The notes under the pieces were generated by a model. That model ran no database searches. It was not told the DNA's origin and saw only the letters and a list, made by a program, of their open reading frames with translations. From Phyllobacterium phragmitis (GTDB lineage Bacteria; Pseudomonadota; Alphaproteobacteria; Rhizobiales; Rhizobiaceae), in NCBI RefSeq assembly GCF_002980495.1, contig NZ_PVBR01000006.1:1-64000 (forward strand): a DNA stretch of 64,000 bases, written 5' to 3'. Shown here piece after piece: positions 7,302-22,887 of this stretch. The translations under genes were made by a program, and so were the position numbers. Within the stretch, counting starts at the first letter, position 1; every line of letters starts with the position of its first letter.

Positions 7302-7870
7302 GCTTTGCCTCGGAAGCGGGCGATCGTTGCAGGTAGCACCATGTTGATTGCCGCGACCGCAACAATCTTCACCAGATCACCGAGGAGGAAGGGCAGAACG
7401 CCAGCCGCGAGAACCTGATTGACCGGAACATAGGCTGCGAGCCATGCCGCACCGAACCCGTAGATCGGCAGCATGCCGACCAGCATGGCCCCGAGACGGC
7501 CGGCCGTGCCTTTGCCAGTTGCAAGGACGCCCACCAGCCACGAGGCAATTAGATAGCCGAGCAGATAGCCGCCAGTGGGTCCGACCATATAGGCAAGGCC
7601 GATGCCGCGTTCAGGCGAGCCGGAGAACACCGGCAGGCCGGCCGCGCCGGCCGCGAGATAGGTCAGGAAGATCGAGACCGCGATACGCGGGCCGAAAGCG
7701 ACGGCGAAGGCCATCACGGCCATCGTATGCAGCGTCATCGGCACGGGCCAAAACGGGATCTGCACCTTGGCGGCGAGCGTCATCAGCGCCGCGCCGGCAA
7801 TGACGGTCACGACCGTTCGCGTGGATATCCCGGAGCGGGCTTCGATCTGTCGTGAGGCGGTGTCGCTCAT
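7298..7870 (-). CDS. bioY: BioY biotin uptake protein (ECF S-component)
   Basis: A 190-residue integral membrane protein of the BioY family, the substrate-binding component that imports biotin alone or with an energy-coupling module. Six hydrophobic segments are visible. Family patterns include [27 protein letters not shown] and the [11 protein letters not shown] signature that lines the biotin pocket. It heads the bioY-bioB operon (4-base overlap). A BioR operator lies 23 bases before its start codon, so expression should fall when biotin is ample. Confidence 0.95.
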
Positions 7871-7923: not shown

Positions 7924-8006
7924 GGAATCCACAGAAACGCCGCCATGGCAATAGCCATGCCCGGATGTGACCTTCGTTCGTTGAATGAAGGCGAAGGATC
8001 GGCCGG

Positions 8007-8633: not shown

Positions 8634-8636
8634 GTT

Positions 8637-8646
8637 TTATAGATAA
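8637..8646. promoter_or_regulatory. BioR operator directly upstream of bioR
   Basis: TTATAGATAA is the reverse complement of the site in front of bioY. It begins four bases from the bioR start codon, so BioR would block its own transcription start. Confidence 0.8.
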
Positions 8647-8975
8647 TTCGGGAGCAGCCCGCCGTCGAGCGACCATATTGTCTATTCAACGGCTATCGGG
8701 CTCGCGACTGGAAGTCGTTGAAGCTCGATGCAGGCATGCGCACGGTGTGAAGGCCGTTTTTGATCCATGCCTCCTGCACCCCCGACTCTTCATGAAACCT
8801 GATGTGGAAATCCGCATGCCCCGGATGAAAAGCGTGATTGTGCAACGCGATCAAAACCTCCCGTCCGTCCCGATACCGACAGTCCCCCCACAGATTGCCG
8901 CGGCAAGAACAAAGACCGGGCAGGAAACGGGCGACGGCTGAGAGCGTATGCCGCTCGCCTGACGGCCTGGCGCAC
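8647..8975. other. 329-base stretch with no supported gene
   Basis: Between bioR and the vapC-type toxin. The minus strand can be read for about 60 residues (8693-8890, with GREVLIALHNHAFHPGHADF) ending in a stop. I recognise no family and see no start or ribosome site, so at most a gene fragment is present. Confidence 0.4.
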
Positions 8976-9365
8976 TCATGCTTCCTGCACACTCTCGTAG
9001 CCGGCGGCCTTCGCGGCCTTGACAAATCTCCGGTCGAAGGTCGCGAAGCTCTTGCAATGCGCAGATCTTCCGAGGTGCAGCGCGTCCGCGAAATCCATGC
9101 CCTTCTCGGCAAGGTCGAGGGCGATTGCGACGATTGCGCCATCTTCGACCGTTACCGTCGGAAGTCCCGCAAAGGCGCGCAGCGCGCGGGCGACATCCGC
9201 CGGACGATACTCATAGGTGCTGCGTAGCACCCATTCCGTTTCGAGGATGATCGTGATGGAGGTGAAGACCGGCTGGCCGTCGACCAGCGCCCGCGCTCGC
9301 GGCGACTGTTTCGGATGGTCGTTGGTCAGGTAGCGGACGACAAGGTTGGTATCAATCGCGAGCAT
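8976..9365 (-). CDS. VapC-family PIN-domain ribonuclease toxin
   Basis: A 129-residue PIN-domain protein. The acidic residues expected for metal-dependent RNA cleavage are seen in MLAIDTNLVVRYL (Asp5), ILETEWVLR (Glu), GMDFADALH (Asp) and the final FATFDRRF (Asp). Toxins of this type cut tRNA or rRNA unless bound by their antitoxin. The ATG at 9365 gives the standard N-terminus. It overlaps the AbrB-type antitoxin gene by 14 bases, so the pair is co-translated. Confidence 0.9.
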   Translation of the reverse strand: MLAIDTNLVVRYLTNDHPKQSPRARALVDGQPVFTSITIILETEWVLRSTYEYRPADVARALRAFAGLPTVTVEDGAIVAIALDLAEKGMDFADALHLGRSAHCKSFATFDRRFVKAAKAAGYESVQEA

Positions 9366-9630
9366 GCCGGTGCCTGGCCTCGGCGAGCACACCCGCATCC
9401 ATTTCATCCAGCGTCTTCGGCTGGCCCTTGTGGGGCAACACACCGAACACATCCTCAGGCCGCGTCTCGGCGAATGCCGGCGCGGGCTTCAGCAGCACGC
9501 CTTCGGCCGTCTCCTCGACTGTGAGCCGCGTTCCCGCCCGCCATTCCCGCCGCAGGCGAATAGCGCTGGGCAGGATGACCTGTCCCTTGGTGGAAACGGT
9601 GGTGGTGGTAAGCTTCTCTACTGTGGCCAT
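9352..9630 (-). CDS. AbrB/MazE-type antitoxin (SpoVT-AbrB domain)
   Basis: A 92-residue antitoxin. The N-terminal swapped-hairpin AbrB DNA-binding domain is clear (TTTTVSTKGQVILPSAIR and RLTVEETAEGVLLKP). The C-terminal tail (residues about 60-92) should wrap the VapC toxin encoded by the overlapping downstream gene. The start is ATG 9630. Upstream, two direct repeats of a TAAGA-type sequence (9650-9667) may be the self-repression site. This is the first of four toxin-antitoxin modules in the window, and the only one outside the plasmid backbone. Confidence 0.88.
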   Translation of the reverse strand: MATVEKLTTTTVSTKGQVILPSAIRLRREWRAGTRLTVEETAEGVLLKPAPAFAETRPEDVFGVLPHKGQPKTLDEMDAGVLAEARHRHARD

Positions 9631-9925
9631 AGGCCCGAACCTTCCTGATGTAAGACAAACGTAAGATAGCTTCGAACGGCCTGACATTCAAGTCCACGTC
9701 TTCTCCTACACGTCGTTTAGGAGCCAGAGGAAGGCCCGGAATGGTTCGAGCCGGTGCGGCGGAGAGGCTTTGAGATCGTGGTGGGGCGAGCGGGGGTCCG
9801 AAACTGTCGAGCGGGGAGCGCTACCGACCCAATTAAGTTGCCATTCTAAAATAAAATGCCAGTGTAACCATCAGTTGTGTGCGGCCAATCGGCCCGATCA
9901 GGGTAGCGCCCGACATGACAAACAA

Positions 9926-10250
9926 TCATCCCGCGCTGTCATAATATTTCATCGTTTGCTCAACGATCCCAAGCAATCTCCGTCTCGTCATCCCATCCTC
10001 GGCCTGAATTGACAGCCCTTGGAGTACCGTTATCAGAAAATCTGCAAGCGAAGAAATATCGGTTGATTGATTTATTTCTCCAGCCTCTTGGCCGCGTCGC
10101 AAGCGATCGAATATTGAAGCGAGCCGTTGAGTGCGTTGCTCCGAAAGCCATTTAAGCAGTTCGTCGTTGCCGGCTCCCATGCGAAGTCCCGACGAGACGA
10201 TCATGCAACCTCGGGGTCGCTCCCAACTGGTAAAGAGCATCACCGCATGC
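9926..10250 (-). pseudogene. TetR-family regulator, C-terminal half only
   Basis: The minus strand encodes the ligand-binding half of a TetR regulator (FTSWERPRGCMIVSSGLR, then ELLKWLSEQRTQRLASIFDR and VLQGLSIQAEDGM up to a stop). The N-terminal helix-turn-helix half is absent; at about 10250 the sequence switches to a divergent, equally broken transporter. The two were probably a regulator/exporter pair that lost their shared middle by deletion. Confidence 0.75.
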
Positions 10251-10277
10251 TGTTCTTCCCTCAAAGACGAGCCGGAT

Positions 10278-11060
10278 TGCCTTCGTTTTCTCGGTCTGGG
10301 CGCTCGGGCCGATGATCGGCGGCCGCTTGACGTCCTGTTTGGATGGCGCTCGAACTTCATCGCCTTCGCCGTCTTGGGCCTGGTCGGTCTCCTTTTGGTC
10401 ATGCGCGGTTTCGAGGAGACCAAGACGCGGGATCTCGGCGCCACCTTTCGGCTTAAGAGTTACCATGCCGATGGGTTCACGCATCTTCTGGGGGTACGCT
10501 ATCTGCATGGTTTTTTCCATGGGCACCCTCTACATCTTTCTCAGCGGCGCACCTCTGGTCGCAAAGAGCTTTGGCGTTGAATCTGCGATCGCAGTCGGTG
10601 CGTTGATGGGGCTTGTCCCAGGAGCGTTTGTTCTGGGAAGCACATTTGCCGGTCGCTACGGCAAAAACTACGCACCGCCTGTCCTCATGGCAAGCGGCCG
10701 GATTTTGACATTGTCCGGTCTTTCCGTGGGAATTTTACTTTTCTATTTTGCGTTCATCATGTGGCGGCCTTCTTCCTGCCCTGTGCCTTTGTCGGGCTGG
10801 GAAACGGCCTGACCATGCCTGCGGCCAATTCCGGCGTATTGTCCTTGCGCTCGGAACTGTCGGCGACAGCATTGGGGCTTGCCAATGCCACGACCGTTGC
10901 AGGCGGAGCGGCGATCGTATCGATCTCAGGAATTTTCATGACGACCACGAACGCTCACTGGACCGCCATAGCCCTGATGATTGGGACGACAACCATCTCT
11001 CTTTTGGCCGCTTTGAGCATTGCGTCCCGGACCACGCCAAAGTCCAACGGCGAGAGCTAA
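10278..11060 (+). pseudogene. MFS multidrug exporter (Bcr/CflA-like), frameshifted
   Basis: Plus-strand pieces in three frames form the C-terminal two thirds of a major-facilitator drug exporter: VWALGPMIGGRLT; FGWRSNFIAFAVLGLVGLLL; GSRIFWGYAICMVFSMGTLY with GALMGLVPGAFVLGSTFAGR; and CAFVGLGNGLTMPAANSGVL with GLANATTVAGGAAIVSISG. At least three frameshifts break it and the first helices are missing. It stands next to the truncated TetR gene. Confidence 0.75.
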
Positions 11061-11062
11061 CA

Positions 11063-11302
11063 GTGCAGAGCGTGAAAACTGGCGTCATTCTCGGTGCTGG
11101 CATGATTGCCCGGACGCATATGCTTGCATGCGCCGCTGCTCGCCACAAAGTGCGACTTAAGGGAATTGGAGACGGAGGCTCCGGACGCGCCGGGGCCTTG
11201 GCTTTGGAAGCATGCCGACTTCTGGGACACGACGTACTTCACTTCAAATCCGTCGACGAGATCGCGACCGGCTTCATCGCCAGCACGCGTTTCCTTGATT
11301 AA
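11063..11302 (+). pseudogene. Gfo/Idh/MocA oxidoreductase, N-terminal fragment
   Basis: A GTG start at 11063 is followed by KTGVILGAGMIARTHMLAC, the Rossmann-fold NAD(P)-binding start of a Gfo/Idh/MocA dehydrogenase. It continues to VLHFKSVDEIATGF and then ends at residue 79, against about 340 in the family. The whole catalytic domain is missing. It is the last of a row of broken genes before the LysR regulator. Confidence 0.65.
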
Positions 11303-11362
11303 ATCTGAAAAGATGTCCGCTTTCTTCGTGGAGCACAATCCGGGCAAGTTCCAGGATGCAAG

Positions 11363-12250
11363 CTATTTACCCACGACCGGATCGAATTTCGATTTAAGCC
11401 AGTTTAGGAAGGTACGGGCGTCTCTCCTTTCAAGACGATCCTGCCGTCCGACCAGATAGAAGGCCTTATCGGGGTTTTTATACTCGGAAAGAATCGCGAG
11501 TTTCCCCTTTGCAGCGAGATCCTTGGCATAGATATCCCGGACGCTTCCAAGTCCCTGCTTTCCGACAACGGCGCTAATCACAGCCATGTCGTCGTCAAGC
11601 ACCATCCCCCAGCTCGCGTCTTTATTATTCACGGTGAAACGATCGAACCATATATCCCATTCCTCCCGGTCCCTGGAACTCAGGAGCGGCAGGGTTCGCA
11701 GCAACTCATTTATGCAAGGATCATCGGGGGTATTCAGGACTTCCGGTGAAGCGACGAGATTAAGCGAAGGGCGCAAAATTTCTATCGAATGCAGATTCGG
11801 ATAGGAGCCTTTACCATAACGAATGGCAAGATCGGCGAAAATTCCGCCGGACGTAATATCGACCAACCGGACGCCGGTCGATACCTCGACGTTAATGTCC
11901 GGATGTCTGTCGCGAAATTCGCCCAGGTTGGGAATGAGCCAATGGTAGGCAAAGCTGGAGGCGGTATGGATGCACAAAGTGTACTTAGATGATTTCTTCG
12001 CTACCGCTTCTTCAATCAATTCAAGCGGGACCGCAACTTTATGAAGCAATTCCTTCCCGGATGGGAGCAATTCGATACCTTGGGGATGCCGGATGAACAG
12101 AGGTCCCCCCAGATACTCCTCGAGGGACGCTATGCGCTGACTGAGGGCCCCCACGGAGAGGTTCAGTTTCTCTGCAGCCTTTCGGAAGCTCATCAAGTGC
12201 GCCACATGAACGAACGTGCGCAATTGTTCGAGCGGAAGTCTTGCAACCAT
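11363..12250 (-). CDS. LysR-family regulator (GcvA-like)
   Basis: A 295-residue LysR regulator. The winged helix is at residues 5-65 (PLEQLRTFVHVAHLMSFRKA, SVGALSQRIASLEEYLG, PLFIRHPQGIELLPSG), followed by the effector-binding domain (HTASSFAYHWLIPNLGEFRD, FADLAIRYGKGSYPNL), which resembles the GcvA/AmpR branch. ATG 12250 is chosen over a longer frame because it sets the usual distance to the HTH. It is divergent from a DMT exporter gene with an 81-base gap, suggesting it controls export at the edge of the quorum-sensing biosynthetic cluster. The DNA is visibly richer in A+T than the backbone genes. Confidence 0.9.
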   Translation of the reverse strand: MVARLPLEQLRTFVHVAHLMSFRKAAEKLNLSVGALSQRIASLEEYLGGPLFIRHPQGIELLPSGKELLHKVAVPLELIEEAVAKKSSKYTLCIHTASSFAYHWLIPNLGEFRDRHPDINVEVSTGVRLVDITSGGIFADLAIRYGKGSYPNLHSIEILRPSLNLVASPEVLNTPDDPCINELLRTLPLLSSRDREEWDIWFDRFTVNNKDASWGMVLDDDMAVISAVVGKQGLGSVRDIYAKDLAAKGKLAILSEYKNPDKAFYLVGRQDRLERRDARTFLNWLKSKFDPVVGK

Positions 12251-12331
12251 ATCGGGGCGTTCGATAATTCTAAACAGCGATTTCAATCTATTATATTGAG
12301 TTGGGAGGAAGCACAAGCCAGAAGTTGTGTC

Positions 12332-13264
12332 ATGACACATAAGGCATCAGCCACTCAGAAACTCACTTCTTCTATTTCATCAAAGCCTCAGGGACTTTCC
12401 ATTTGGGCCACCGTTTTGATGATCCTCATCTTCGCGTTGTGGGGAGGACAGCAAGTTGCAATAAAAATCGGCAATACGGAACTTGCGCCGATATTCCAAG
12501 CTGGCATTCGGTCTATCGGGGCGAGCGTATTGATGACAATGTGGTTCTTGGTAAAAGGGACGCCGCCCTGGCGTATGGGGGTTGGCCCTGGAGCTGCCGC
12601 CCTGTTGGGCGTGCTGTTTACATTGGACTTTGCATTGTTATTTCTCGGGCTGAACGAGACGACAGCGTCGCGTGGGACGATTCTGTACTATACCGGTCCG
12701 ATTATGATCGCCGTGGGCGCGGCGGTGATTCTGCCAAGCGAGAGGATCGGGCGACTCGGAATCGCAGGGTTCGGGCTGGCCTTTCTTGGCGTATTGGCAG
12801 TGTTGTGGCGCAACGAAACCATAGCCAACCACACCAGCATTACGGGCGATCTCCTCTGTCTGGGAGCGGCTGCGGCCTGGGCGAGCACTATTCTCGTTAT
12901 CAAGGTTACGAGGCTCATTCACGTTCCGGCCAATGCAGTCCTTTATTTCCAATTGCTCGGATCTGCAATCGCACTTCCCCTACTGTCTTATCTTGTGGGA
13001 GAGGAATGGTCAGCGCCGCAATCAGCGGTCGTCGTTCAGGCTGTGCTTTTCCAGGTCGTCTTCGTAGCGTTTCTGAGCTATCTCGTATTTTTCTGGATGC
13101 TGCAGCGCTTCTCTGCCGGAACGTTGTCTGCTTATTCATTCCTGGCGCCTGTCTTCGGGGTTCTGCTAAGCAATCAATTGCTTGGGGAACAGGTTTCTCC
13201 ATTGTTCGCCATTGGTACGCTGATGGTGGTTTGCGGATTATATTTGGTGGCCAAGGGTAAATAG
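12332..13264 (+). CDS. EamA/DMT-family transporter (putative exporter)
   Basis: A 310-residue ten-helix drug/metabolite transporter with two EamA repeats (residues about 20-150 and 165-305). Seen are ALWGGQQVAIKIGNTELAP, TLDFALLFLGLNETTASRG with YYTGPIMIAVGAAVILPSER, and the second-repeat helix end LGEQVSPLFAIGTLMVVCGL. The ATG at 12332 is preferred; longer reading overlaps the LysR gene. It is divergent from that LysR gene and convergent with the ectC-asnB-aroA genes. Family members export amino acids or small metabolites, so it may release the product of the adjacent cluster; this is inference from position. Confidence 0.88.
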   Translation: MTHKASATQKLTSSISSKPQGLSIWATVLMILIFALWGGQQVAIKIGNTELAPIFQAGIRSIGASVLMTMWFLVKGTPPWRMGVGPGAAALLGVLFTLDFALLFLGLNETTASRGTILYYTGPIMIAVGAAVILPSERIGRLGIAGFGLAFLGVLAVLWRNETIANHTSITGDLLCLGAAAAWASTILVIKVTRLIHVPANAVLYFQLLGSAIALPLLSYLVGEEWSAPQSAVVVQAVLFQVVFVAFLSYLVFFWMLQRFSAGTLSAYSFLAPVFGVLLSNQLLGEQVSPLFAIGTLMVVCGLYLVAKGK

Positions 13265-13392
13265 GCGACGCGACCAGCCCGCCCCGGCCAAAAGAAACCG
13301 CCTCCAACACTTCGATGGAGAAAGGACAGGGCCGAACAATTGGCCGTAACGTTCATACCGAAGCCACCGTTGTTTCCACGGGACCTTTACGT

Positions 13393-13773
13393 CTAATAAG
13401 TTGAAGCCCTTTCGTTTGAAAGGCTGTGACTTTCAGCACCATTCAAAGCGGGTGAAAATACGCTGACCAAACGCATATCAGTGAAGACGCGTAGGAAATG
13501 GGGGTCGTGCTTATCGAGGGCGTAGATCACGCCGGGTTCGATAGGATAAATGTTGCCGTTCATATCTTCGACTTCACCGGTCCCTTCAATACAGTAGCAG
13601 GCTTCTAAGTGGTGCTTGTATTCAAGAAAAATAGCGGTTTCGGCAGGGATCGTCGTGTCTGCCACGGTAAATCCCATATTGTCATCGGCGAGCAGGAAGC
13701 GTCGACTTTGGCCCAATCCCCAGTTTACGTCTCTTTCTGATCCAGAAATTTCGACAAGTGAACGGACGATCAT
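13393..13773 (-). CDS. EctC-like cupin (ectoine synthase family)
   Basis: A 126-residue cupin of the ectoine synthase family. The family's metal ligands are present at the expected places: Glu57 in EYKHHLEACYC, Tyr84 in GVIYALD and His92 in KHDPHFLR. The N-terminal MIVRSLVEISGSERDVNWG also matches EctC. EctC closes the ring of N-gamma-acetyl-diaminobutyrate by loss of water. No ectA, ectB or ectD is present, so ectoine itself is unlikely; solitary EctC relatives probably cyclise another amide or amino acid. It is the last gene of the minus-strand run aroA-like, aroA-like, asnB-like, ectC-like, 70 bases after asnB. Confidence 0.85.
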   Translation of the reverse strand: MIVRSLVEISGSERDVNWGLGQSRRFLLADDNMGFTVADTTIPAETAIFLEYKHHLEACYCIEGTGEVEDMNGNIYPIEPGVIYALDKHDPHFLRVFTDMRLVSVFSPALNGAESHSLSNERASTY

Positions 13774-13843
13774 GACATTCTCCTGATTTCGATAGGCAAT
13801 GGAACATACCCGCCCTTCTGCGGGCCCGATAATGGTTCAAGGA

Positions 13844-15394
13844 TTACGATGCGAATTTGAAATAGCCGTTTTCGGAGTAGTCCAACCCCGGCAAGCGATG
13901 GCGGCCTGTGGGAATGGGGAATCCTTGCTCTGAAAATAAGCTGTAGAAATACATCGATTGGGGGGTATCCAACTTCAACTGCCCGCGCAGGCCTTCATCG
14001 ATACGGGGACTTTGGGTGGCAGCATATTCCATAAGGATATTTTTGACGCCGCTGCCTTCGGGCATACGCACTTTGGGCCTATCAATCAGATAGTCCGGCA
14101 GCACGTCCCGGAAAGCTTCGCGAAGCACCCATTTTTCCACCCCGCTTCGAAGCTTCATATTCATCGGAAGGTTGTATGCGAAGCTGAGGAATTCCTTGTC
14201 GAGAAACGGCACGCGCGCCTCGACGGAATTCATCATGCTTGCCCGGTCAACGCGCTGCAGATCCGTCCTGTGAAGGTTGTGGACCCGATAGCGCATTAGC
14301 GACTGGGGGTCACTGTGAGAGCGAAATAGGTCATAGCCCGCGAGAACTTCGTCGCTTCCCTCCCCACAAAGGGCAACCTTAAAGCCATTCCTGCGGGCAT
14401 GTCTGTAGCCGAAATACGCAACGCAGGCATCGATAATATCAATCCCTTCGAAAAATTCGGCCACATATACGACATGTGGGATCATGCCCACCAATTCGTC
14501 GCGATCCAAACGATAGGTAAGGTGTCTTATACCGCGTTCCTTACAGTAGCGTTCGGCGATAGGCATGTCAGCGGCCCCATCAAATCCTATCGTGATGGCA
14601 GTGACATTCGGGTGGTATTTGCACGCCATATTGAGAATGATGCTGCTATCGATACCTGCGCTGAACATGACGGCCATAGGAAGGTCCGTCTGAACCTGTT
14701 TTCTGACCGCATTTTCCAGAAGGCGCCGACATTCCCTTATCGATTCATCGACGTTCGGCAGATTCTGAACCACTGCACTCGGCTGGCCTTCCAAATCGAA
14801 ATACGTGTAAGTATTCCCGTCCCTGATGAAGGTTCCTGGAGCAACAGTGGCAATAGAGACACCGAGATGAATGAGCGATTTTTGCTCAGATGCAAAATAG
14901 TGGACCTCGTGCTTCACAGCATAATAGAGTGGTTTGATGCCCACATGGTCTCTGACCGCCAAGAAGGAGTTGTTTACTTTGTCAGCAACGATAAAGGCGT
15001 ATATTCCATCGAGCTTATTTGCCAGGTCGTTTCCCCAGTGCAGGTAGCCGTTCACCAATACTTCCGTATCTGACTCGGTCTGGAATTCCCACCCTTGTTG
15101 CTTCAGCTCCTCTCGCAGCTCAGAATGGTTGTAAATTTCGCCATTGAAAACCACGACGACTTGACCGGCCTTATCAGTAATCGGTTGTTTCGCATGGTGC
15201 CGGTCAACAATTGCCAGGCGATTGGTGCCCAAGGCAAAACCGTCGTCGACTAAAACTTCTCCGAATAATTCAGGGTCGCCACGATATCTGAATTTCTCCA
15301 ACATGGTCAGAAGCTCCGCCTGATGATCATGTCCGTTGACATGACGACCGTCCCAACTGGACGCAAAATCGATTATTGCCGCAATTCCGCACAT
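13844..15394 (-). CDS. AsnB-like glutamine-dependent amidotransferase
   Basis: A 516-residue class II asparagine-synthetase homologue. The start ATG 15394 leaves Cys2 as the N-terminal nucleophile after Met removal (MCGIAAII) and has the strong ribosome site GGAGGAATAT. The glutaminase domain (residues 1-200) shows RLAIVD, NGEIYN and SESDTEV-like ESDTEV. The synthetase domain carries a PP-loop SAGIDSS at 245-251, with Ala for the usual first Gly, and GEGSDEVLAGY. Such enzymes adenylate a carboxylate and amidate it. E. coli AsnB has 554 residues; this one is shorter and sits in a secondary-metabolite-like operon, so the acceptor may not be aspartate. Confidence 0.88.
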   Translation of the reverse strand: MCGIAAIIDFASSWDGRHVNGHDHQAELLTMLEKFRYRGDPELFGEVLVDDGFALGTNRLAIVDRHHAKQPITDKAGQVVVVFNGEIYNHSELREELKQQGWEFQTESDTEVLVNGYLHWGNDLANKLDGIYAFIVADKVNNSFLAVRDHVGIKPLYYAVKHEVHYFASEQKSLIHLGVSIATVAPGTFIRDGNTYTYFDLEGQPSAVVQNLPNVDESIRECRRLLENAVRKQVQTDLPMAVMFSAGIDSSIILNMACKYHPNVTAITIGFDGAADMPIAERYCKERGIRHLTYRLDRDELVGMIPHVVYVAEFFEGIDIIDACVAYFGYRHARRNGFKVALCGEGSDEVLAGYDLFRSHSDPQSLMRYRVHNLHRTDLQRVDRASMMNSVEARVPFLDKEFLSFAYNLPMNMKLRSGVEKWVLREAFRDVLPDYLIDRPKVRMPEGSGVKNILMEYAATQSPRIDEGLRGQLKLDTPQSMYFYSLFSEQGFPIPTGRHRLPGLDYSENGYFKFAS

Positions 15395-15434
15395 ATATTC
15401 CTCCAAACCGTGTGGGACGATAGACCGTTGTGCC

Positions 15435-16763
15435 TTAGGCGACTTTCAGCAGGGGGGTCACAGAGGCCCCGATTTTTTGCATGTCATCGAAAAAGGTAGG
15501 ATAGGTCTGGGCCACGTGCTGTGGATCATTGATGATCAGACCGTGACGGCTTCCGAAGGCAATGGCGGACAAGGCCATAATGACGCCGTGATCGAAGTGC
15601 CCAAAGACCTCAGCGCCGCCATCTATGCCGCCGGGAGAGCCATGGATGATCAATTCGTCCCGTGTTTCCTCGGTTTGAATGCCGGCTTTGAGCAGTTCCG
15701 CACGGTAGTCGCTGATCCGGTCGCACTCTTTATACCGGATATGCTCGATGTTCCCGAAACGGCTCGTACCATCAGCGAAAGCGGCGACAGCTGCCAATGG
15801 CAGCACCGCATCGGGAGCTAGAGAGCCGTCGAAATTATGCGCTACAAAGGGACCGCCGCCGAAAACCCTAAGTTCTTTGGACGATCGTTCCATCCGAACT
15901 CCCAGTTTTCTCAGGTAATCCAGCACTGCGCCGTTGCCCATCTCTTCCTCATGATAGGAGGTGAGGCGCACATTGGACGGCACGACCGAAGCAGCCGCCA
16001 GCAACGCCGCTGTGCTGGCAGGATCGGAACCGACAACGTAATTCGACGGTTGCAGAGTCGTATCGGCCGGAAGATGGTAGGCCATCATATTCGGCTGGGC
16101 CTGCACTTCCACACCAGCCTGTTTCAGGATTCGCATTGTCGTCCGAACCATGTCCGGCGCCTTCAGTTCATCCAGAACCGTAATGGATAGCCGATCCTTA
16201 ATGGATGCGCCAAGAAACAGGAGCCCGCTCAGAAATTGCGAGCTTTTCCGACAGGAAATCGCCGTATCACCACCGTGCAGGTTCGTACCATCCAGGTGGA
16301 TCGGTAGTTTTCCGTCATTGTCTCGCCATTTGCATTGCACCCCCAAGGCTTCTAGGGCGTCCATCATTTCGATGTTCGAGCGTTGACCGAGGGATCGATC
16401 ATAGTCCGTCCGGAAGGTCACGTCGGATAGGCAAGCTGTGACGCCTAATAACAGGCGAAGCACGACGCCCGAATTGCCAGGATTGAGAACAATGTGGTCG
16501 TTCAACCCGTCCCAGCCGGGGCCATCCACAGCCAACGTGGTGGCGTCTTGATAACAGATATTGGCACCAAGAGCTTCACAGCAGTCGATCATGGCCTTGA
16601 CGTTCTTGCTGTTGGCTATATTCGTGATCCGACTGGTACCCTTGGAGAGAGTTGCCGCCAGTACCGAACGGGTGGACGAGCTTTTCGAGGCCGGCGGCGT
16701 GATTGCCCCCTCGAACCACTCGGCCGGGAATACCTGTAGTTTATCGACTTCAAGCAGTTTCAT
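15435..16763 (-). CDS. EPSP synthase-like enolpyruvyl transferase, copy 1
   Basis: A 442-residue AroA-family protein with the duplicated six-fold inverse-barrel pattern. Kept residues: Lys27 in PPASKSSSTRS, the NPGNSG loop at 94-99, Arg128, SSQFLSGLL at 174-182, Asp318 in APDAVLPLA (catalytic base in EPSP synthase), and RYKECDRI at 343-350 with Lys345, Glu346 and Arg349. Changed: the DHR motif is DHG (391-393), losing the Arg that binds phosphoenolpyruvate in E. coli AroA, and the later AKSFP-type Lys is Gln (VAQTYP). The start ATG 16763 follows a GGAGG-type site and overlaps copy 2 by 14 bases. Unlikely to serve the shikimate pathway. Confidence 0.85.
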   Translation of the reverse strand: MKLLEVDKLQVFPAEWFEGAITPPASKSSSTRSVLAATLSKGTSRITNIANSKNVKAMIDCCEALGANICYQDATTLAVDGPGWDGLNDHIVLNPGNSGVVLRLLLGVTACLSDVTFRTDYDRSLGQRSNIEMMDALEALGVQCKWRDNDGKLPIHLDGTNLHGGDTAISCRKSSQFLSGLLFLGASIKDRLSITVLDELKAPDMVRTTMRILKQAGVEVQAQPNMMAYHLPADTTLQPSNYVVGSDPASTAALLAAASVVPSNVRLTSYHEEEMGNGAVLDYLRKLGVRMERSSKELRVFGGGPFVAHNFDGSLAPDAVLPLAAVAAFADGTSRFGNIEHIRYKECDRISDYRAELLKAGIQTEETRDELIIHGSPGGIDGGAEVFGHFDHGVIMALSAIAFGSRHGLIINDPQHVAQTYPTFFDDMQKIGASVTPLLKVA

Positions 16764-18132
16764 AATAATCCTCCGCTCTTCTGGGGGAGGTCCGTTGAAT
16801 AACGCCCTCGTCAATCTCTTCATTACGGGTGCGGACGTTGAGGATTGACATCACGTCGAAAAAACTTGGGAAGCCGGCGTCCATGTATTCCGCGCCTGTA
16901 ATTCGCGTGATCTCCTTCGCGCTTAAGGAGGCAGCGAAAAGCCCCCCAAGAACCCGGTGATCCCGAAAGCTATCGAGGGTTACCCCTCCCGTCGGTTCGC
17001 TTTTCCCCAGGGCGATGAGACCTTCCATCGTTCCTTCATGGTTGAATTTTGGACGGACATTGCAGCCAAGGCGACGAAGTTCTTCGACCATCACGAGAAG
17101 GCGCTGGCATTTGTGATGATTGACGTGCCCGGCTCCTCTGATGGTTACATCAGCGGCCGACAAACAGGCCGCTGCGCACAGGGATGGAACCACCGTCGGG
17201 ATATTCTTAGCGTCGATCTCGATTTCGTGCTCAGCCGGATTGGTATGCCTAATATGAAGGCGATGCGCGCGTTCGTCATAATCAGAGACAGCGCCCAGTT
17301 TGGCGAACGCTTCAAAAAACTGCGTTTCACTGCTCATTGTGGAACGGCGATAGTGCTCGACGGTCAGCTCTGAGCCAGGGCGGGCTACGACGGCCGCCAT
17401 GAGATACGAGAGAGCCGTGAAGTCGGATGGAATTGTTATCGGTATGTTTTTATACAGGCCGGGATGTACTGAATACGTGTTGCCATCTAGTGCGACGGGA
17501 ATACCCCTTTCCTTCATCATGGACAGGGTGAGGTCGACATACCCTTCTCCTACCAATCCGCCCGATGTGATGATCGACACCCCCTTCGGCGAAAGCGGGG
17601 CGATTAGCAATAGCGCGGTCAGGAATTGCGAGGTTTTTGCCGTGTCAACGATCGTTGCACCGCCGAAGTCTTTCTTCCCGTTGATGAGGATACGGGCGCT
17701 GTTCAAATCGCTCAGATCTTTCCAATTTCCGCCCAGATCGTTGATGAAGGTCAGGTGTTGAAGAACTGGTCGATTTTTGATCGATTTATAACCCTCTATT
17801 GTCGTTTCTCCCGGTACTGCGCTGGCCAAGGCCGCGACAGTTCGGAACATAAAGGCCGACCCGTCGGCCATTAACGCTTTTGCGCTAGGTTTCAGCAATC
17901 CTCCCGTTCCTCGCACCACGAGCCGTTCCGGACCGTCTTCGATGACTTGCAGCCCGAATTGTTTCGCTGCCTCAAACAGCCGCTTTGTTTCGCTGGACCA
18001 CGAGGGGAATAGAATTTCCGTGTCTCCTTCGGACAGAAGTGCAAAAATCAACGCTCTTTGCATATGCGGCTTCGAGGATGGCACTGACGCCAGCCCTTTC
18101 AGTTCCCCAACGGGTAATATTGATACATGCAT
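16750..18132 (-). CDS. EPSP synthase-like protein, copy 2 (degenerate active site)
   Basis: A 460-residue AroA-family protein, first of the biosynthetic operon. Kept: Lys21 in VPSSKPHMQRA, Arg97, Arg121, TSQFLTALLL at 167-176, and DHR at 391-393. Lost: the catalytic Asp, here Thr313 (NIPTVVPSL), and the KE pair, here Lys341-Cys342 (NHHKCQRL). The Lys before the final FP motif is replaced (DAGFPSFF). It therefore keeps exactly the PEP-binding Arg that copy 1 lost, and lacks the acid/base residues copy 1 keeps. The start ATG 18132 has an AGGAG site; its 3' end overlaps copy 1, so translation is coupled. Function unknown; pseudoenzyme or partner subunit are both possible. Confidence 0.8.
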   Translation of the reverse strand: MHVSILPVGELKGLASVPSSKPHMQRALIFALLSEGDTEILFPSWSSETKRLFEAAKQFGLQVIEDGPERLVVRGTGGLLKPSAKALMADGSAFMFRTVAALASAVPGETTIEGYKSIKNRPVLQHLTFINDLGGNWKDLSDLNSARILINGKKDFGGATIVDTAKTSQFLTALLLIAPLSPKGVSIITSGGLVGEGYVDLTLSMMKERGIPVALDGNTYSVHPGLYKNIPITIPSDFTALSYLMAAVVARPGSELTVEHYRRSTMSSETQFFEAFAKLGAVSDYDERAHRLHIRHTNPAEHEIEIDAKNIPTVVPSLCAAACLSAADVTIRGAGHVNHHKCQRLLVMVEELRRLGCNVRPKFNHEGTMEGLIALGKSEPTGGVTLDSFRDHRVLGGLFAASLSAKEITRITGAEYMDAGFPSFFDVMSILNVRTRNEEIDEGVIQRTSPRRAEDYYETA

Positions 18133-18623
18133 CCTGGAGCTCCTCTGACGATGGTAGAAGGTTTGCATCAGTATCTTGAATGTTTTTCGTGCTGGACGAG
18201 AGCACGGGGGGATATGAACTTTCCAGTGAGTGGGTATGGCTGCTGCGTTTCGAATATCTCGTCGTATGCGAAAACTTCCGATAGCTAAACGCACAGCAAC
18301 ATTAAACGGATAAGTTGTATTTGAAATTTCAAATATCTAAACACCTATTAAGAAAAAAAAGCAGTATTAATGGCTGTTGACATAAATCTGTTTTTGGTTG
18401 GATCAGAGGAAGCGAGATGCAATCGATAGCCTGGACCATGAGCTGAAATGTATGTATATTGTTGCTTGGCAGATGGGATGGTTGCCGTCCTCCCCTAGCT
18501 AGAGGTTTGGTGAAGGCTTCTCCTAGCCATCGCCCTCTCCACCCGATTCCGAAAGTGCACGCTTGGTGGTCCGCTCCAAGGTTCGTCGACATGCGCAGTA
18601 GCGATCCCTCATCTGGTCGTGCC
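18133..18623. other. 490-base A+T-rich control region between luxI and the aroA-like genes
   Basis: No gene is supported here. It separates the luxR-luxI pair from the biosynthetic genes, all on the minus strand, so the promoter of the biosynthetic operon should lie inside. The stretch 18300-18400 is very A+T-rich and holds an 18-base perfect palindrome. Confidence 0.6.
18318..18335. promoter_or_regulatory. 18-bp perfect palindrome, candidate LuxR operator
   Basis: TATTTGAAATTTCAAATA is fully symmetric with its centre between 18326 and 18327. It lies 186 bases upstream of the first AroA-like gene. Lux boxes are 18-20 bp palindromes upstream of quorum-controlled promoters, and a luxR-luxI pair adjoins. 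The A+T-rich sequence does not match a named lux-box consensus I know, so the assignment is by position and symmetry. Confidence 0.5.
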
Positions 18624-19289
18624 TCAGGCGGCTTTGCCATAATCCGCCAGAATCGTCGGTATTGGTCGAGCTGACCGATCGTACAGAGGCTCTGACAGGC
18701 GAAGCGCCCCACGCATGGACGATAGCACCTGACTCGAAATTTCGAACGCTCCGCAACAAACAGGGAATCGACCGAAACCATCTGCCCGCCCAAGCTCATG
18801 GACGGTCGCACCGGTTCGCCGGTAAAGCCGCTCAACATGAGGCTCGTAGTTTGAGATCATTGTGTGAATCCCATTGACGAGAGCAAACTCACATAGCGCA
18901 ACGAGGAGCAGACAAAACGCTTGGCGGGGCGAGATATGCGGATAGTCTTCCGCCAGTGCCTTCTCGTCGACGCACATACGGGTTCCTTCCCATATGCCGG
19001 GTGCTGACAGTTCGGCGGCGTCAGGAAATGTCCGTCGGAACACATCGTAGAGAAGGGTCGGCCCGGTGGTCGGCATCAACCTCATGCTTCCATAATGGCG
19101 CTTTCGTTCTGAATCGCACCACACCAGATACACTGGCTGCATATCGTCGTATTGATCGCGTTCGAATTCGCCATCTACCTCAACTTGCCAATGCAAATTG
19201 TCAAAGAATACAGCTTTTCGAGTCCGGAACATCTGAGCGAGCACTTCCGGATAGGCAGCGTATTCATGAGCTTGTATTGAAACAATCAT
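18624..19289 (-). CDS. LuxI-family acyl-homoserine-lactone synthase
   Basis: A 221-residue autoinducer synthase that makes acyl-homoserine lactone from S-adenosylmethionine and an acyl-carrier donor. The invariant residues are present: Arg24, Phe28 and Trp34 (RTRKAVFFDNLHWQV), Asp45 and Asp48 (ERDQYDDMQ), Arg70 (GSMRLMPTTGPTLL), Glu101 and Arg104 (WEGTRMCV). ATG 19289 follows an AAAGGAG site. It lies 68 bases after luxR on the same strand, so the two are probably co-transcribed. Acyl chain length cannot be read from the sequence. Confidence 0.94.
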   Translation of the reverse strand: MIVSIQAHEYAAYPEVLAQMFRTRKAVFFDNLHWQVEVDGEFERDQYDDMQPVYLVWCDSERKRHYGSMRLMPTTGPTLLYDVFRRTFPDAAELSAPGIWEGTRMCVDEKALAEDYPHISPRQAFCLLLVALCEFALVNGIHTMISNYEPHVERLYRRTGATVHELGRADGFGRFPVCCGAFEISSQVLSSMRGALRLSEPLYDRSARPIPTILADYGKAA

Positions 19290-19357
19290 CTTCGCGCTCC
19301 TTTATTCTGGCAGCGCGAAAACAATGCTCCGGGCAAAGATCGGCGGGTAGTCCCCCC

Positions 19358-20113
19358 TCAAGGGCCCTTGTTCGGGGGGGATTGCCTTGGCCAAGGCGTT
19401 ATGATCCCAAGATGAATCGCTCGTGTGGCCGCTGCCGAGCGTGTCGCACAGCCCAGTTTCAGCCTGGCCGATTTGAGGTAGTCGCGAACTGTATGGTCGG
19501 ACAGATTCAGGATCAGCGCAATGTCCTTCAAATCCTTGCCCAGAGCTGTCCAATGGAGGCACTCGACCTCCCGACGACTAAGAGCAGGCACAGGATCGGC
19601 TTCGCCATGGAGCTCATAGATCGCCTTGCCGTGCACGATCTGCGCGAGCGATGCCCATTCCTGCTTGTGCAATTCTACGAGAGCCTTCCATAGATCTGCC
19701 GGCAAAACGGAATTGACGGAAAACAAACCGCGCCGCCGAACCTTATCCACCACAGGAATCGAATAGCCTTGTCCTCCGACACCATGCGCCGACGCATCGG
19801 CAAGGAAGTTGGCTGCATCCGAATCCAGGGCTACTTCATGCCAATGGAACGGGAGCCGTCGGGCAAAGCCATCCCGGACAATCGGATCGACTTCGACATA
19901 TCCCCTCAAGAGATAACGAGCGATCCATGACTCCGGGTACGTGGTTCGCACGAACGGCGCGTCAACCTTCCCAGCCACCGTCCGCGCCAGCTGGTAGGTG
20001 ACAAAGGAGATACCTTCATAATGCCCCTGAAAGGCCCAAAGCGCGTCCTGGACACCAGGCGCTTCCGCGATCCGATCAATTGATACAAAGCGGCTGTCGT
20101 TGGGCTGCTCCAT
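19358..20113 (-). CDS. LuxR-family quorum-sensing regulator
   Basis: A 251-residue LuxR regulator. The N-terminal autoinducer-binding domain (residues about 20-170) has the conserved YPESWIARYLLRGY, VEVDPIV (Asp-Pro) and PFHWHE (Trp) positions that line the lactone pocket. The C-terminal HTH (LSRREVECLHWTALGKDLKD, LNLSDHTVRDYLKSARLKLG) has the expected Glu, Leu and Gly. ATG 20113 (MEQPNDSRF) is preferred over a longer frame. It is the cognate partner of the downstream luxI and probably activates the aroA-asnB-ectC genes; control of plasmid transfer, as by TraR in Ti plasmids, is an alternative. Confidence 0.92.
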   Translation of the reverse strand: MEQPNDSRFVSIDRIAEAPGVQDALWAFQGHYEGISFVTYQLARTVAGKVDAPFVRTTYPESWIARYLLRGYVEVDPIVRDGFARRLPFHWHEVALDSDAANFLADASAHGVGGQGYSIPVVDKVRRRGLFSVNSVLPADLWKALVELHKQEWASLAQIVHGKAIYELHGEADPVPALSRREVECLHWTALGKDLKDIALILNLSDHTVRDYLKSARLKLGCATRSAAATRAIHLGIITPWPRQSPPNKGP

Positions 20114-20434
20114 TCGCCCGCCAACGACACGCCGCCCGCGTGCGTCGATATCCAAACCCCTTTCCCCCATCTCGGGCCGTTAACTTGCTCTCGGCCCGGG
20201 CTATCCAATCTCCATGCAATTGGCTCGTTCGGAATGGTATCGCGCAAGACGACTTGCGACCCGTTGAAGGGGCAAATCTAAAGTTGCAGCCCGTCAGTCG
20301 TTTGGCAGTACATTCGCCTGATCAGTGAACCGGCGATATTTCCCAAACATAATACTGGTTTGCTTCGTCCATATGACCCATCGTAAGCGTACTATATCAG
20401 TGCTCGCGGGACAGCGCAGCGGCTAAGAGGCGAA
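20114..20434. promoter_or_regulatory. luxR upstream region with a 16-bp palindrome
   Basis: This 321-base gap holds no gene. CGCAAG (20243-20248) and CTTGCG (20253-20258) form an inverted repeat with a 4-base centre, 130 bases before luxR, of a size suitable for a LuxR-type site. A second weaker repeat, CGGGCCG/CGGCCCG, lies at about 20173-20199. Both are candidates only. Confidence 0.35.
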
Positions 20435-21667
20435 TTACGCGTATCCTGCCTGGTTTGTGCTCGATACTTTCGGTCCATCACACAGAGAAGGGATAGCTGC
20501 GGCCACATTTGTCGCACTATGCATGGGCGACTCGAAGCTTACTGAGCGGTTTCTTCCCCAGGACTTCGCCGCATAAAGGCGTGCATCGGCACGGCCAATC
20601 ATCGTGCGAAGCGAGTCACCTTGCTTTCTCGCAGCGACACCCAGACTTGCGGTCACGTTGATGTGCATGAAGCCAACCTCCACCGAAATTTCAGCAATAG
20701 AGATCCGTAGACGCTCAGCAAACTTCAGCACCTCCCCCTCGTCGCAATCGACAAGCAATACGGCGAACTCCTCCCCACCTATACGCCCGATCGCGTTGCG
20801 GCCATAGGTCGCGCCGCGAAGCACTGCTCCGACGCGTCCGAGAACCTCGTCCCCGACACCATGGCCATATCGGTCATTGATCTGCTTGAAATGGTCGAGA
20901 TCGAACAGCACTAGGCCGGTCACGACTTCCCGCGAGAATACCGTTGCGGCGTAGGTGTCGAACCCGCGTCTGTTAAACACGCCGGTCAGTAGGTCGAAGT
21001 CGCGCTCATAGCGCAGCGTTTCAATGATCTCGATGACCGTCGCTGCCAAGATGGTTGCGGCAAGGCTGATCCCAATGATGACAATTGCAATATGGACGAC
21101 CTCGTGAAGACTTCTATGGCCGTGTGCCGACTGGACTTGGAGTAGATCGCCTGTGCTCAAGGCAGCGTTCAGGAAGAAGGCGAAACAAAAGAGCGCCAGC
21201 AGGCAGAATAGGAGTCCTTCAACGAAACGTGATCGCGGTGCGGCTCGAACCTGCCACCATGTTGCTGACAATGCTGCGCTGTAGGCAGCGCTTTGAACGA
21301 AATTACGGAAGGTCGGCTCCTCGACCGCATAGATGGAGTACCAGATCAACAATAAAACGATGACGACGAAGCCAGGTGCAGCAATCGGATGGACACTCCT
21401 CGAGCTCCGCCGCAAGATACCTTCACAGAGCAGGGCCACGCCAAGGGTATAGAGCCCGCTGCGCACGAGGACAGCGGCTTTTCCATGGTCAGAACTTCCT
21501 AGCCAAATTGCTTCACCGAGCAAAACTGCAACGCACATCGCAGCGAAAACCAGGAGAGCCTGTCGACTACGATCGAGGCACCAGATCCCGATATAGGCAG
21601 AAGCCAACGCAACTAGAAACCCTGACCCAGCCATGGACATAATAACAGTATTTGCCGACTCTTCCAT
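20435..21667 (-). CDS. membrane-anchored diguanylate cyclase (GGDEF)
   Basis: A 410-residue protein: six to seven hydrophobic segments (residues about 10-220), then a GGDEF domain (about 228-385) starting at DLLTGVFNRRGFD. The active-site loop is GGEEF and FDLDHFKQINDRYGHGVGDE is intact, so it should make cyclic-di-GMP from GTP. The inhibitory RxxD site, normally just before the GGEEF hairpin, reads YGRN, so product inhibition is probably absent. The N-terminal membrane part may sense an unknown signal. It is monocistronic and upstream of the quorum-sensing genes on the same strand, with 321 bases between. Confidence 0.92.
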   Translation of the reverse strand: MEESANTVIMSMAGSGFLVALASAYIGIWCLDRSRQALLVFAAMCVAVLLGEAIWLGSSDHGKAAVLVRSGLYTLGVALLCEGILRRSSRSVHPIAAPGFVVIVLLLIWYSIYAVEEPTFRNFVQSAAYSAALSATWWQVRAAPRSRFVEGLLFCLLALFCFAFFLNAALSTGDLLQVQSAHGHRSLHEVVHIAIVIIGISLAATILAATVIEIIETLRYERDFDLLTGVFNRRGFDTYAATVFSREVVTGLVLFDLDHFKQINDRYGHGVGDEVLGRVGAVLRGATYGRNAIGRIGGEEFAVLLVDCDEGEVLKFAERLRISIAEISVEVGFMHINVTASLGVAARKQGDSLRTMIGRADARLYAAKSWGRNRSVSFESPMHSATNVAAAIPSLCDGPKVSSTNQAGYA

Positions 21668-21904
21668 CGCCCCCGTAACCCAAAAACAGCCTGACAGGAG
21701 GGCGGTATCCGACGCTCCCAGACGTGGTCAGCCTGAGGGTTTTGGCGACAAGAAGTGATGAACGAAACGGCTCAAAATCTAACTGATAATTGCTCTCGTC
21801 GACGCGGATACTCAAATTGTCAAGGAAAACAAAGGTAAAGAATAAATATATTTCAATATATATTTGACGTCTGCTCATATCGTCACCTCGCTCGGGGTTC
21901 GGTC

Positions 21905-22386
21905 CGGCGCCATGGGCTCTGATGCCACGCTCTCTGCCGGCGCTGCATTGGCCGCGGCGCGAGCCGTCTGACCCCCTTTCGACCCAACCCGAGTTCCCTG
22001 GCCACTTTCCGCCGCTGTTCAGAATACGATGGCGCCACCAACGGATAATCGTCCGCAGTCGAAATTCTTCCGGTGTCAGTCCGCGCGTCGACAGATGCCG
22101 CTTGAGCGTTTTGTATGGCTTCCGTCGATCATGCTCAGGATATGATCCTTAGACGCTAAGCTCTCCTTGGCCGATACGGCCGGGATATGTTCGGGATCCC
22201 GCTCAGGCTGGGTTTCGCCGTCGATAGCAACATTTTTTTGTTGTCCTCTGCAAGTGTGGCACGCGTCGTCCGGATAAGCTCGGCCAGCCCATTGGAGGGG
22301 ACCGCATTATTCGTGACGTAAGCGCTCAAGAGCTGCACGGTCAGGGTTGTGCGACACAACCGGCTTTGAATTGTGACAGATGTCAA
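21905..22386 (-). pseudogene. MucR/Ros regulator, decayed copy
   Basis: Minus-strand pieces in different frames make up a second MucR: LSAYVTNNAVPSNGLAELI (22386 to about 22200), KDHILSMIDG followed by KPYKTLKRHLSTRGLTPEEF (about 22150 to 22050), and DYPLVAPSYSEQRRKVAREL with GLGRK (about 22030 to 21970). At least two frameshifts and a stop break it. It lies just downstream of the intact mucR at 22420, so a tandem duplication or two successive acquisitions are both possible. Confidence 0.75.
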
Positions 22387-22419
22387 CGTTCGACTCTCGA
22401 ACGCGTCGCCGTGCGCCGC

Positions 22420-22887
22420 TCAACTGAACTTCAGTTTTATAGTTGGTCGTTTCGGAGCAGGCGTCGGTTGCCCGGCCGGCGGTCTTCGACCGAGGCCAGC
22501 GCTCTTTGCCAGAGCTGACCGTGTTGCGGAATAGTTCGGAGCCATCGGATAGTCGGCCGGCAGATTCCATTTCTGCCGATATTGGTCCGGCGTCAGGTTG
22601 TAATGCGTGGCGAGGTGGCGCTTCAGCGATTTGAATTGCTTGCCGTCTTCCAGGCAGATCAGGAAACCCGGTGTTATGGATTTGCGAACCGACACCGCCG
22701 GAACGGGCTTTTCTTCCGGTTGTTCGGCTTTGGCGCCTGCGGCGAGATTGGCGATCGCCGCATGCGTATCGGCAACGAGGCTCGGCAGCTCACTCGGGGG
22801 TACGGGATTGTTGCTGACATAGGCGGAAACGATTTCTGCTGTCAGCTCGACCAGGTTGGCTGCGGCCTGTGTATTCTCTTCGGTCAT
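22420..22887 (-). CDS. MucR/Ros-family zinc-finger regulator
   Basis: A 155-residue MucR/Ros regulator. The N-terminal helices include LVELTAEIVSAYVSNNPV. The core has the family wording SITPGFLICLEDGKQFKSLK followed by RHLATHY, carrying the Cys/His ligands of the prokaryotic zinc finger, and YRQKWNLPADYPMAPNYS. ATG 22887 (MTEENTQAA) is preferred. In Rhizobiales these proteins repress exopolysaccharide, virulence and conjugation genes by binding A+T-rich DNA. A copy at the border of a plasmid backbone may silence element genes. A decayed second copy lies immediately downstream. Confidence 0.93.
   Translation of the reverse strand: MTEENTQAAANLVELTAEIVSAYVSNNPVPPSELPSLVADTHAAIANLAAGAKAEQPEEKPVPAVSVRKSITPGFLICLEDGKQFKSLKRHLATHYNLTPDQYRQKWNLPADYPMAPNYSATRSALAKSAGLGRRPPAGQPTPAPKRPTIKLKFS

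Follow-up and report, generated by a model that had tools for sequence, protein, structure and literature searches.

An operon-like gene set with two altered AroA-family genes, an AsnB-like and an EctC-like gene beside luxRI in Phyllobacterium phragmitis

The window analysed in this work is a stretch of 64,000 nucleotides at the end of the 289-kb contig C6 (NZ_PVBR01000006.1) of Phyllobacterium phragmitis, which has a genome of 5.6 Mb. On its minus strand lie, in order, the genes for a LuxR-type regulator, a LuxI-type synthase, two overlapping AroA-family proteins (AroA1 and AroA2), an AsnB-like amidotransferase and an EctC-like cupin (Table 1). This order, proposed in an earlier sequence-only reading, was confirmed: all the named genes are intact frames, with Pfam family scores far over the cut-offs.

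Table 1. Features of the gene cluster and of the adjoining exporter and regulator genes (window coordinates)
Feature	Position	Strand	Basis and remarks
LuxR-type acyl-homoserine lactone (AHL)-responsive regulator	19358..20113	-	Autoind_bind 2e-22 and GerE 2.8e-12; ATG at 20113
LuxI-type AHL synthase	18624..19289	-	Autoind_synth 1.2e-28
Perfect 18-bp palindrome TATTTGAAATTTCAAATA, candidate operator	18318..18335		luxI-AroA1 gap
AroA1, 5-enolpyruvylshikimate-3-phosphate (EPSP) synthase family	16750..18132	-	EPSP_synthase 4e-56; D313T, E341K, K411A, S23P (E. coli numbering)
AroA2, EPSP-synthase family	15435..16763	-	EPSP_synthase 1e-69; R386G, K411Q; K22, R124, D313, E341, R344 kept
AsnB-like glutamine-dependent amidotransferase	13844..15394	-	Asn_synthase 1.5e-63 and GATase domains, N-terminal MCG; altered acceptor pocket
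EctC-like cupin cyclase, orphan type	13393..13773	-	Ectoine_synth 6.5e-42; E57/Y84/H92 kept, N38 replaced by A
EamA/drug-metabolite transporter (DMT)-family exporter	12332..13264	+	EamA 7.6e-30 on frame from 12302; ATG 12332; convergent to operon
GcvA-like LysR regulator	11363..12340 (alternative start 12250)	-	Divergent from exporter

The two aroA-like genes overlap by 14 bp, the EctC-like gene stands 70 bp behind the AsnB-like gene on the same strand, and sequences resembling Shine-Dalgarno sites, judged by eye, precede AroA1, AroA2, AsnB and EctC. The exporter and LysR genes, previously taken as flanks of the cluster, are both present, but the exporter converges on the operon, and this divergent pair is therefore considered to lie beside it rather than in it. 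The housekeeping AroA and the MurA of the genome are located on other contigs (C4 and C29, respectively), so neither AroA of the cluster is the primary gene. The set very probably represents a dedicated biosynthetic operon, which would be read as a single transcript.

A tblastn search with AroA1 against 72,556 plasmid records matched 51 of them, every one below 60% identity; 40 of these were listed. The surroundings were read for three of these records (Streptomyces microflavus, Pseudomonas asturiensis and Paenibacillus cellulosilyticus), as well as for an E. coli aroA control, and only in S. microflavus NZ_CP054927.1 do AroA1, AroA2 and AsnB follow one another as they do in the window, with strand and order alike. 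The three genes are labelled there as 'hypothetical protein', aroA and asnB, and their products are 30% (AroA1, WP_176145682.1), 52% (AroA2, WP_176145683.1) and 47% (AsnB-like) identical to those of the window. This cluster, on a plasmid of strain NA06532 (about 216.8–227.5 kb), is given no product in its record and shows the same key residue changes as the window; unlike the window, the 25-kb stretch read has neither EctC nor luxRI. After the core come a 77-aa protein with no Pfam match, a nonribosomal peptide synthetase (NRPS) with AMP-binding, carrier and thioesterase domains, and one more AroA, the third, whose residues are canonical.

The NRPS has 1287 aa (17178–21041 of the stretch), with an AMP-binding core at residues 17–367 and a weak match to the AMP-binding C-terminal domain at 862–898, followed by the carrier and the thioesterase; about 400–500 aa inside the adenylation region match no Pfam family. 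This layout is reminiscent of indigoidine-type synthetases. The third AroA, located after the NRPS (21327–22649), has the canonical D313, E341, R386 and K411; as a speculation, it might serve for self-resistance, should the product be an inhibitor of EPSP synthase.

Since the core recurs in order on a Streptomyces plasmid, it is a real and horizontally shared module, which supports the earlier proposal of a separately acquired, dedicated biosynthetic cluster. The co-occurrence across genomes expected in the earlier reading holds for AroA1, AroA2 and AsnB; it does not extend to EctC and luxI, since the core occurred twice among the records searched and once with EctC. The cassette is diverged and rare in the plasmids and genomes searched, and it has probably passed between phyla.

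At E≤1e-50, AroA2 found two plasmid records, S. microflavus and P. cellulosilyticus (40%). The genome samples of relatives, family, order, class and phylum overlap, with shared genomes counted more than once, and in these, the own genome aside, AroA1 was found at 1e-40 in 0 of 150 relatives, a limit near the score of the Streptomyces copy; AroA2 in 0 of 397 genomes of the phylum at 1e-65, and in 0 of 396 of the order and 0 of 384 of the class at 1e-60; and the AsnB-like protein in 0 of 393 of the family at 1e-100. The Streptomyces copies score 1e-100 (AroA2) and 4e-147 (AsnB-like), so the limits for these two proteins would admit them. A scan of IMG/VR with the alignment of the AroA2 pair gave 53 pattern matches, none of them confirmed.

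Three further AroA candidates were rejected as relatives of the cassette. The plasmid AroA of P. asturiensis is a single copy in the stretch read, and that of P. cellulosilyticus, behind a shikimate kinase gene, is likewise a single copy in the stretch read; both have canonical D313, E341 and R386. An Opitutales aroA, the one confirmed among 17 pattern-matching stretches in a scan of the genome collection with AroA1, has neighbours that by eye resemble tyrA and a cytidylate kinase gene.

In EPSP synthase, D313 and E341 are the catalytic acids, while R124, R344, R386 and K411 contact phosphoenolpyruvate (PEP). Both cluster proteins belong to the family over their full length, with the PF00275 match spanning residues 38–448 in AroA2 and 63–482 in the longer frame of AroA1. 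Against the NCBI aroA equivalog (cut-off 287.25 bits), AroA1 and AroA2 score 219.9 and 308.6, and their Streptomyces counterparts 181.8 and 288.5, respectively. The residues were compared with six EPSP-synthase controls, namely those of E. coli, Paenibacillus, Pseudomonas asturiensis and Opitutales, the third Streptomyces copy, and the class II AroA of the genome itself; MurA of this genome stood in the same alignment and was not counted as a control, because its columns are not trusted there. D313, E341 and R386 are retained in all six controls. In AroA1 of both organisms, these positions are occupied by T, K and R, and S23P, N94G, G96A and T97F are further changes common to both. AroA2 of both organisms keeps D313 and E341, but R386 is replaced by G in the window and by A in Streptomyces, and both share K411Q and Y200M. 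Thus, of the PEP-binding set R124/R344/R386, AroA1 keeps all three and AroA2 lacks the last; K22, R27, R124, Q171, R344 and H385 are retained in both proteins, and AroA2 also keeps S169–Q171.

In an 11-sequence tree, AroA1 joined the Streptomyces AroA1 with an ultrafast bootstrap of 97, and AroA2 joined the Streptomyces AroA2 with 100. As the same changes are found across phyla at 30–52% identity, they point to a new function and not to decay. The lost catalytic residues and the long branches of the tree would also fit AroA1 as a decaying duplicate in a non-functional cluster, but the frames are all intact and preceded by Shine-Dalgarno-like sites, and identical replacements in Streptomyces at 30% identity are not expected from decay, which makes this explanation highly improbable. 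A single-sequence AlphaFold model of AroA1 was unusable (mean predicted local distance difference test score of 39.7). From the residues, AroA1 is in all likelihood something other than an ordinary PEP-dependent EPSP synthase, and the same is likely, with less confidence, for AroA2.

The sequence-only reading had suggested enolpyruvyl transfer onto a hydroxyl. The family match behind that proposal stands, but the proposal itself is weakened, since the residues missing from AroA1 (D313 and E341) and from AroA2 (R386) in both organisms are present in every control. In its full form, this explanation takes both proteins as true enolpyruvyl transferases with an unusual hydroxyl as acceptor; the carboxylate so introduced would then be amidated and the ring closed, all under LuxR/AHL control. 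It has on its side the full-length family membership of both proteins, the residues kept by AroA2 (K22, R124, S169–Q171, D313, E341 and R344) together with its passing of the equivalog cut-off, and the fact that a new enolpyruvyl carboxylate would supply a target for AsnB. Given the losses in both phyla, we regard it as unlikely.

The AsnB-like protein matched 164 plasmid records at E≤1e-30, and among the 20 listed its closest homologues are those of Streptomyces cellulosae (52%; 4 of the 20), S. microflavus (47%) and Tistrella plasmids (43–46%, with T. mobilis at 43%); E. coli AsnB is 32% identical. The S. cellulosae gene (14998–16530 of its stretch) lies inside an NRPS cluster that also contains a tryptophan-7-halogenase gene, and the T. 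mobilis gene (12001–13605 of its stretch) lies between a methyltransferase gene and a LysE-family gene; AroA1 and AroA2 are absent from both stretches read. In AsnB, the aspartate pocket includes T322 and an adjacent Arg, numbered 324 here. In the alignment of the subfamily, Cys1, R30, R49, N74, E76, D98 and K449 are kept in 4/4 proteins and E348 in three, with D in Tistrella, while the aspartate pocket is changed in all four by T322D, A325D and the loss of R324. In the window protein, the ATP-pyrophosphatase loop has the sequence SAGIDSS; the four others aligned have SGG there. An identification as beta-lactam synthetase was dropped, given an intact glutamine site and a far stronger match to E. 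coli AsnB (1.8e-57) than to beta-lactam synthetase (2.9e-19) or CarA (1.2e-10).

The EctC-like protein passes the NCBI ectoine synthase model (153.6 vs a cut-off of 128 bits) and aligns gap-free to the ectoine synthase of PDB 5onm, which is taken, because the residue numbering fits, as the enzyme from Paenibacillus lautus described in PMC6344544. The available text of that paper gives E57, Y84 and H92 as the Fe ligands, describes N38 as the residue that binds the carboxylate of the substrate in the crystal, and counts N38 among the residues conserved in 437 EctCs of ect clusters. The three ligands are kept in the window protein, as are R25, T40, Y52, S23 and F106. In the plasmid collection, EctC-like matches were found in 120 records, 40 of them listed; the six orphans that were opened are 53–58% identical to the window protein. 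The N38 column reads A/M/T/C/C/T/T in the window protein and these six orphans, with Asn in 0/7, and a Trp is displaced by three places in all of them. None of the six orphan loci, read as 16-kb stretches, has AroA1, AroA2 or the AsnB-like gene. On a plasmid of Aliiroseovarius crassostreae (8001–15522 of the stretch), the orphan ectC stands first in a series of genes for a ketosynthase, an acyl-CoA dehydrogenase, AMP-binding and acyl carrier proteins and a TrpD-like protein.

The bit score also agrees with a true ectoine synthase fed by a plant-derived precursor, with neighbours unrelated to it. In favour of this possibility, ectoine formation with the orphan EctC of Pseudomonas syringae has been reported when host leaves were present in culture and on expression in a Halomonas ectC mutant, according to the portions of PMC5924519 and PMC6344544 available; however, a review calls that work inconclusive in the portion available, and reviews treat the role of orphan EctCs as unresolved. 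No second EctC was found in the genome, and ectA and ectB are absent among the nine genes of 11363–21667, the rest of the genome not having been searched for them. The replacement of N38, shared by the other orphans, and the position of the gene close behind AsnB speak against it as well, and an ectoine synthase is considered very improbable here.

In the luxRI pair of the window, LuxR is 57–64% and LuxI 66–73% identical to plasmid homologues of Rhizobium leguminosarum, Devosia and Pelagibacterium, the three opened from 12 listed matches among 795 records with LuxI. In Pelagibacterium, the homologous pair has TraM and another LuxR as its companions; in Devosia, it lies shortly behind trbI, with a second LuxR and with a response regulator after luxI; and in R. 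leguminosarum, no annotated tra or trb gene occurs within 7 kb of it. On contig C6, the window luxI is the only LuxI found, and one more is present in the genome, on contig C10 (about 6799–7458 of the stretch C10:8000–22000), about 30% identical to it. The pair stands about 31 kb from traG, with trb and TraR/TraM further off. TraM and TraR-like genes were located at C6:209022–209952, about 190 kb away from luxRI, 43 and 51% identical to those of Pelagibacterium, where their counterparts adjoin the counterparts of the window luxRI.

Between luxI and AroA1 lies a gap of 491 bp (18133–18623) with a perfect 18-bp palindrome, which the earlier reading did not include. Binding sites of the LuxR family are 18 bp long. 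Among 20,000 mononucleotide shuffles of the gap, 34 contain a perfect palindrome of this length, and one other is present in the window, at 58153. Copies of the site with ≤3 mismatches were not found elsewhere in the window, and the rest of the genome has one site with three mismatches, as many as for a control pattern; as there is no copy elsewhere in the window, nothing ties the palindrome to luxR or luxI control. Palindromes near luxRI of Pelagibacterium, Devosia and R. leguminosarum share no motif with it. Neither a terminator-like site nor, on the minus strand, a sigma-70-like site was found in the gap. With a tra-box consensus and ≤5 mismatches allowed, one site with five mismatches appears in the window (9057), one in a further stretch and none in another, so no close match was obtained.

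These data bear on the gating of the cluster by quorum sensing, which is weakened as a claim: an intact luxRI does adjoin the operon on the same strand, but homologous pairs stand with TraM or trb on two of the three plasmids opened. The pair could be the conjugation signalling system of the plasmid with no special tie to the operon, which would then be driven by a promoter of its own inside the 491-bp gap and be controlled otherwise, for example by LysR. Along with those two plasmids, the contig itself offers TraM and TraR-like genes at 209 kb, trb genes near 252 kb and a single luxI, and the pair may serve conjugation even though it stands apart from the tra/trb genes. The R. leguminosarum locus, the distances from traG, trb and TraR/TraM, the position of luxRI immediately before the operon, from which no terminator-like site separates it, and the length of the palindrome argue in the other direction. 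We consider a conjugation-only role a serious possibility that falls somewhat short of even, and control of the operon by LuxR and AHL slightly favoured.

Regarding the genomic setting, DNA at 30–54 kb of the window matched 608 records of the plasmid collection, none reaching 80% coverage, with names mostly of Rhizobium, Agrobacterium, Bradyrhizobium, Sinorhizobium and Mesorhizobium plasmids. Contig C6 carries traG and a MobA/MobL-type relaxase gene with an AAA domain, in addition to the trb genes; TrbG/CagX-like matches number seven genome-wide, one of them on C6. The host replicon is a conjugative rhizobial plasmid, probably of the Ti type, with the operon in its cargo. To the left of the operon region, the cargo includes radical-SAM/BATS, BioY and GntR genes; to the right, MucR, DUF3991/toprim and DUF1419 genes. 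A megablast search with DNA 11363–20113 against the 72,556 plasmid records returned zero matches.

The eight genes from luxR to the EctC-like gene plus EamA and LysR have a G+C of 0.48–0.58 and a G+C at third codon positions (GC3) of 0.51–0.63, while six of the eight neighbouring or backbone genes measured have 0.63–0.64 and 0.70–0.78. The A+T-richness described earlier for the cluster is thus real, but it is not limited to it: the GGDEF and MucR genes adjoining luxR are also low (G+C 0.56 and 0.58; GC3 0.60 and 0.62), and therefore the stretch extends over about 9.5–23 kb. A PIN-domain protein (8976–9452) lies at its left edge. Elsewhere in the window, a second cargo set at 1938–4874 comprises an epoxide hydrolase gene, a LysR regulator gene and a partial EamA-type exporter frame, and the frame at 27401–32509 encodes a protein of 1702 aa that weakly matches helicases and Eco57I-like methylases; a tRNA-Cys gene (32514–32588) comes immediately after this frame.

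Because the gene set is rare and the Streptomyces core has the same order and the same altered sites, the operon probably makes an undescribed small molecule. We propose that two members of the EPSP-synthase family, AroA1 and AroA2, have been repurposed as a fixed pair, whose substrate would be a shikimate-type ring or some other small acid bearing phosphate or hydroxyl groups. The alterations in the active sites suggest that the pair carries out two successive steps of a non-standard kind, such as an elimination or a transfer from a donor other than PEP, instead of ordinary enolpyruvyl transfer. The AsnB-like enzyme would then convert a carboxylate to the amide with glutamine; the EctC-like iron cupin would condense a neighbouring amine onto this amide with loss of water, most likely giving a cyclic amidine; and the EamA protein would export the product. 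Amidation and dehydrative ring closure, as suggested before, persist as the natural reading of the two families, while the acceptor pockets of both enzymes are altered.

The amide would be the common intermediate, because the same three enzymes precede an NRPS in Streptomyces, with no EctC. For the ring closure, the proposal draws on a side reaction of the Halomonas EctC, which converts glutamine to the cyclic amidine 5-amino-3,4-dihydro-2H-pyrrole-2-carboxylate (ADPC), as described in the available parts of PMC5924519 and PMC6344544. By this analogy, the EctC-like protein might act on an amide made by AsnB, which we hold as a tentative assignment. As a whole, a horizontally acquired operon for a specialised metabolite, with a repurposed AroA pair, an AsnB amide, an EctC cyclic amidine and export, is the explanation we marginally prefer. 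Its strongest form, in which a PEP-independent AroA pair on a shikimate-type ring and an AsnB-EctC relay yield a new AHL-controlled class of small molecules borne by a conjugative plasmid, with a Streptomyces version ending in the NRPS, seems doubtful; it would also provide a first function other than ectoine synthesis for an orphan EctC.

Several points weigh against this proposal. K411 is not universal, being T in the class II AroA of the genome itself. AroA2 lies over the aroA equivalog cut-off, its Streptomyces counterpart barely so (288.5 vs 287.25), and PEP chemistry may be possible for AroA2, judging from its K22, R124, D313, E341 and R344. The available text of PMC6344544 calls the residues with which orphan EctCs bind substrate and product mostly conserved, and the conversion of glutamine to ADPC is described, in the same partial sources, as very inefficient and reversible, with its equilibrium towards glutamine. 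In addition, EctC, EamA and luxRI have no co-occurrence support, because just one other record bearing the core was found.

If the proposal is true, it would give a concrete pathway context in which the role of orphan EctC proteins can be tested. Members of the EPSP-synthase family, to which the target of glyphosate belongs, would perform other chemistry as a conserved pair, and the operon would offer a four-gene pathway small enough to be tractable, for which an AHL may act as inducer from outside.

In the open-licence literature, judged from titles and the openings of abstracts, no published description of the gene set was found, and nothing usable on aroA/asnB/ectC sets, on aroA-like duplicates, or on the EPSP-synthase-like enzymes of cyclohexanecarboxylate pathways. 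For AhlR/'pao' of Pseudomonas syringae, the operon name was likewise not found among the papers listed.

Among known systems, EPSP synthase resembles both AroA proteins over their full length and differs in the catalytic acids lost by AroA1 and the R386 lost by AroA2. Asparagine synthetase B shares with the AsnB-like protein the N-terminal Cys, the glutamine site, the loop and E348, but not T322 and R324 of the pocket. The ectoine synthase of ectABC shares the cupin fold and the Fe ligands with the EctC-like protein, but not N38 or the ectA/ectB neighbours; orphan EctC-type proteins are closer, with no ectAB alongside, the iron ligands kept and the Trp shifted, although gene neighbours differ from those of the window in the four opened loci that have annotation. 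The adjacent window luxR and luxI, encoding a predicted AHL-binding regulator and AHL synthase, are of the same family as known LuxI/LuxR pairs. AsnB-like enzymes of specialised metabolism (ActJ of actinonin, MatC of matlystatin, and those of oxytetracycline and sanglifehrin) are likened by assigned role and not by sequence; the available text of PMC5719088 assigns them, in the actinonin/matlystatin model, the amidation of a free carboxylate. Finally, the luxR-linked biosynthetic clusters of Proteobacteria surveyed by Brotherton et al. (2018, PMC5872303) have in common with this locus a luxR and a luxI beside biosynthetic genes and an altered G+C; one of 2,000 ectoine-type clusters was luxR-linked according to the text available, and its main text contains neither 'enolpyruvyl' nor 'asparagine synth'. 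The setting of a luxR-linked cluster is of a known kind, unlike the enzyme set and its altered AroA pair.

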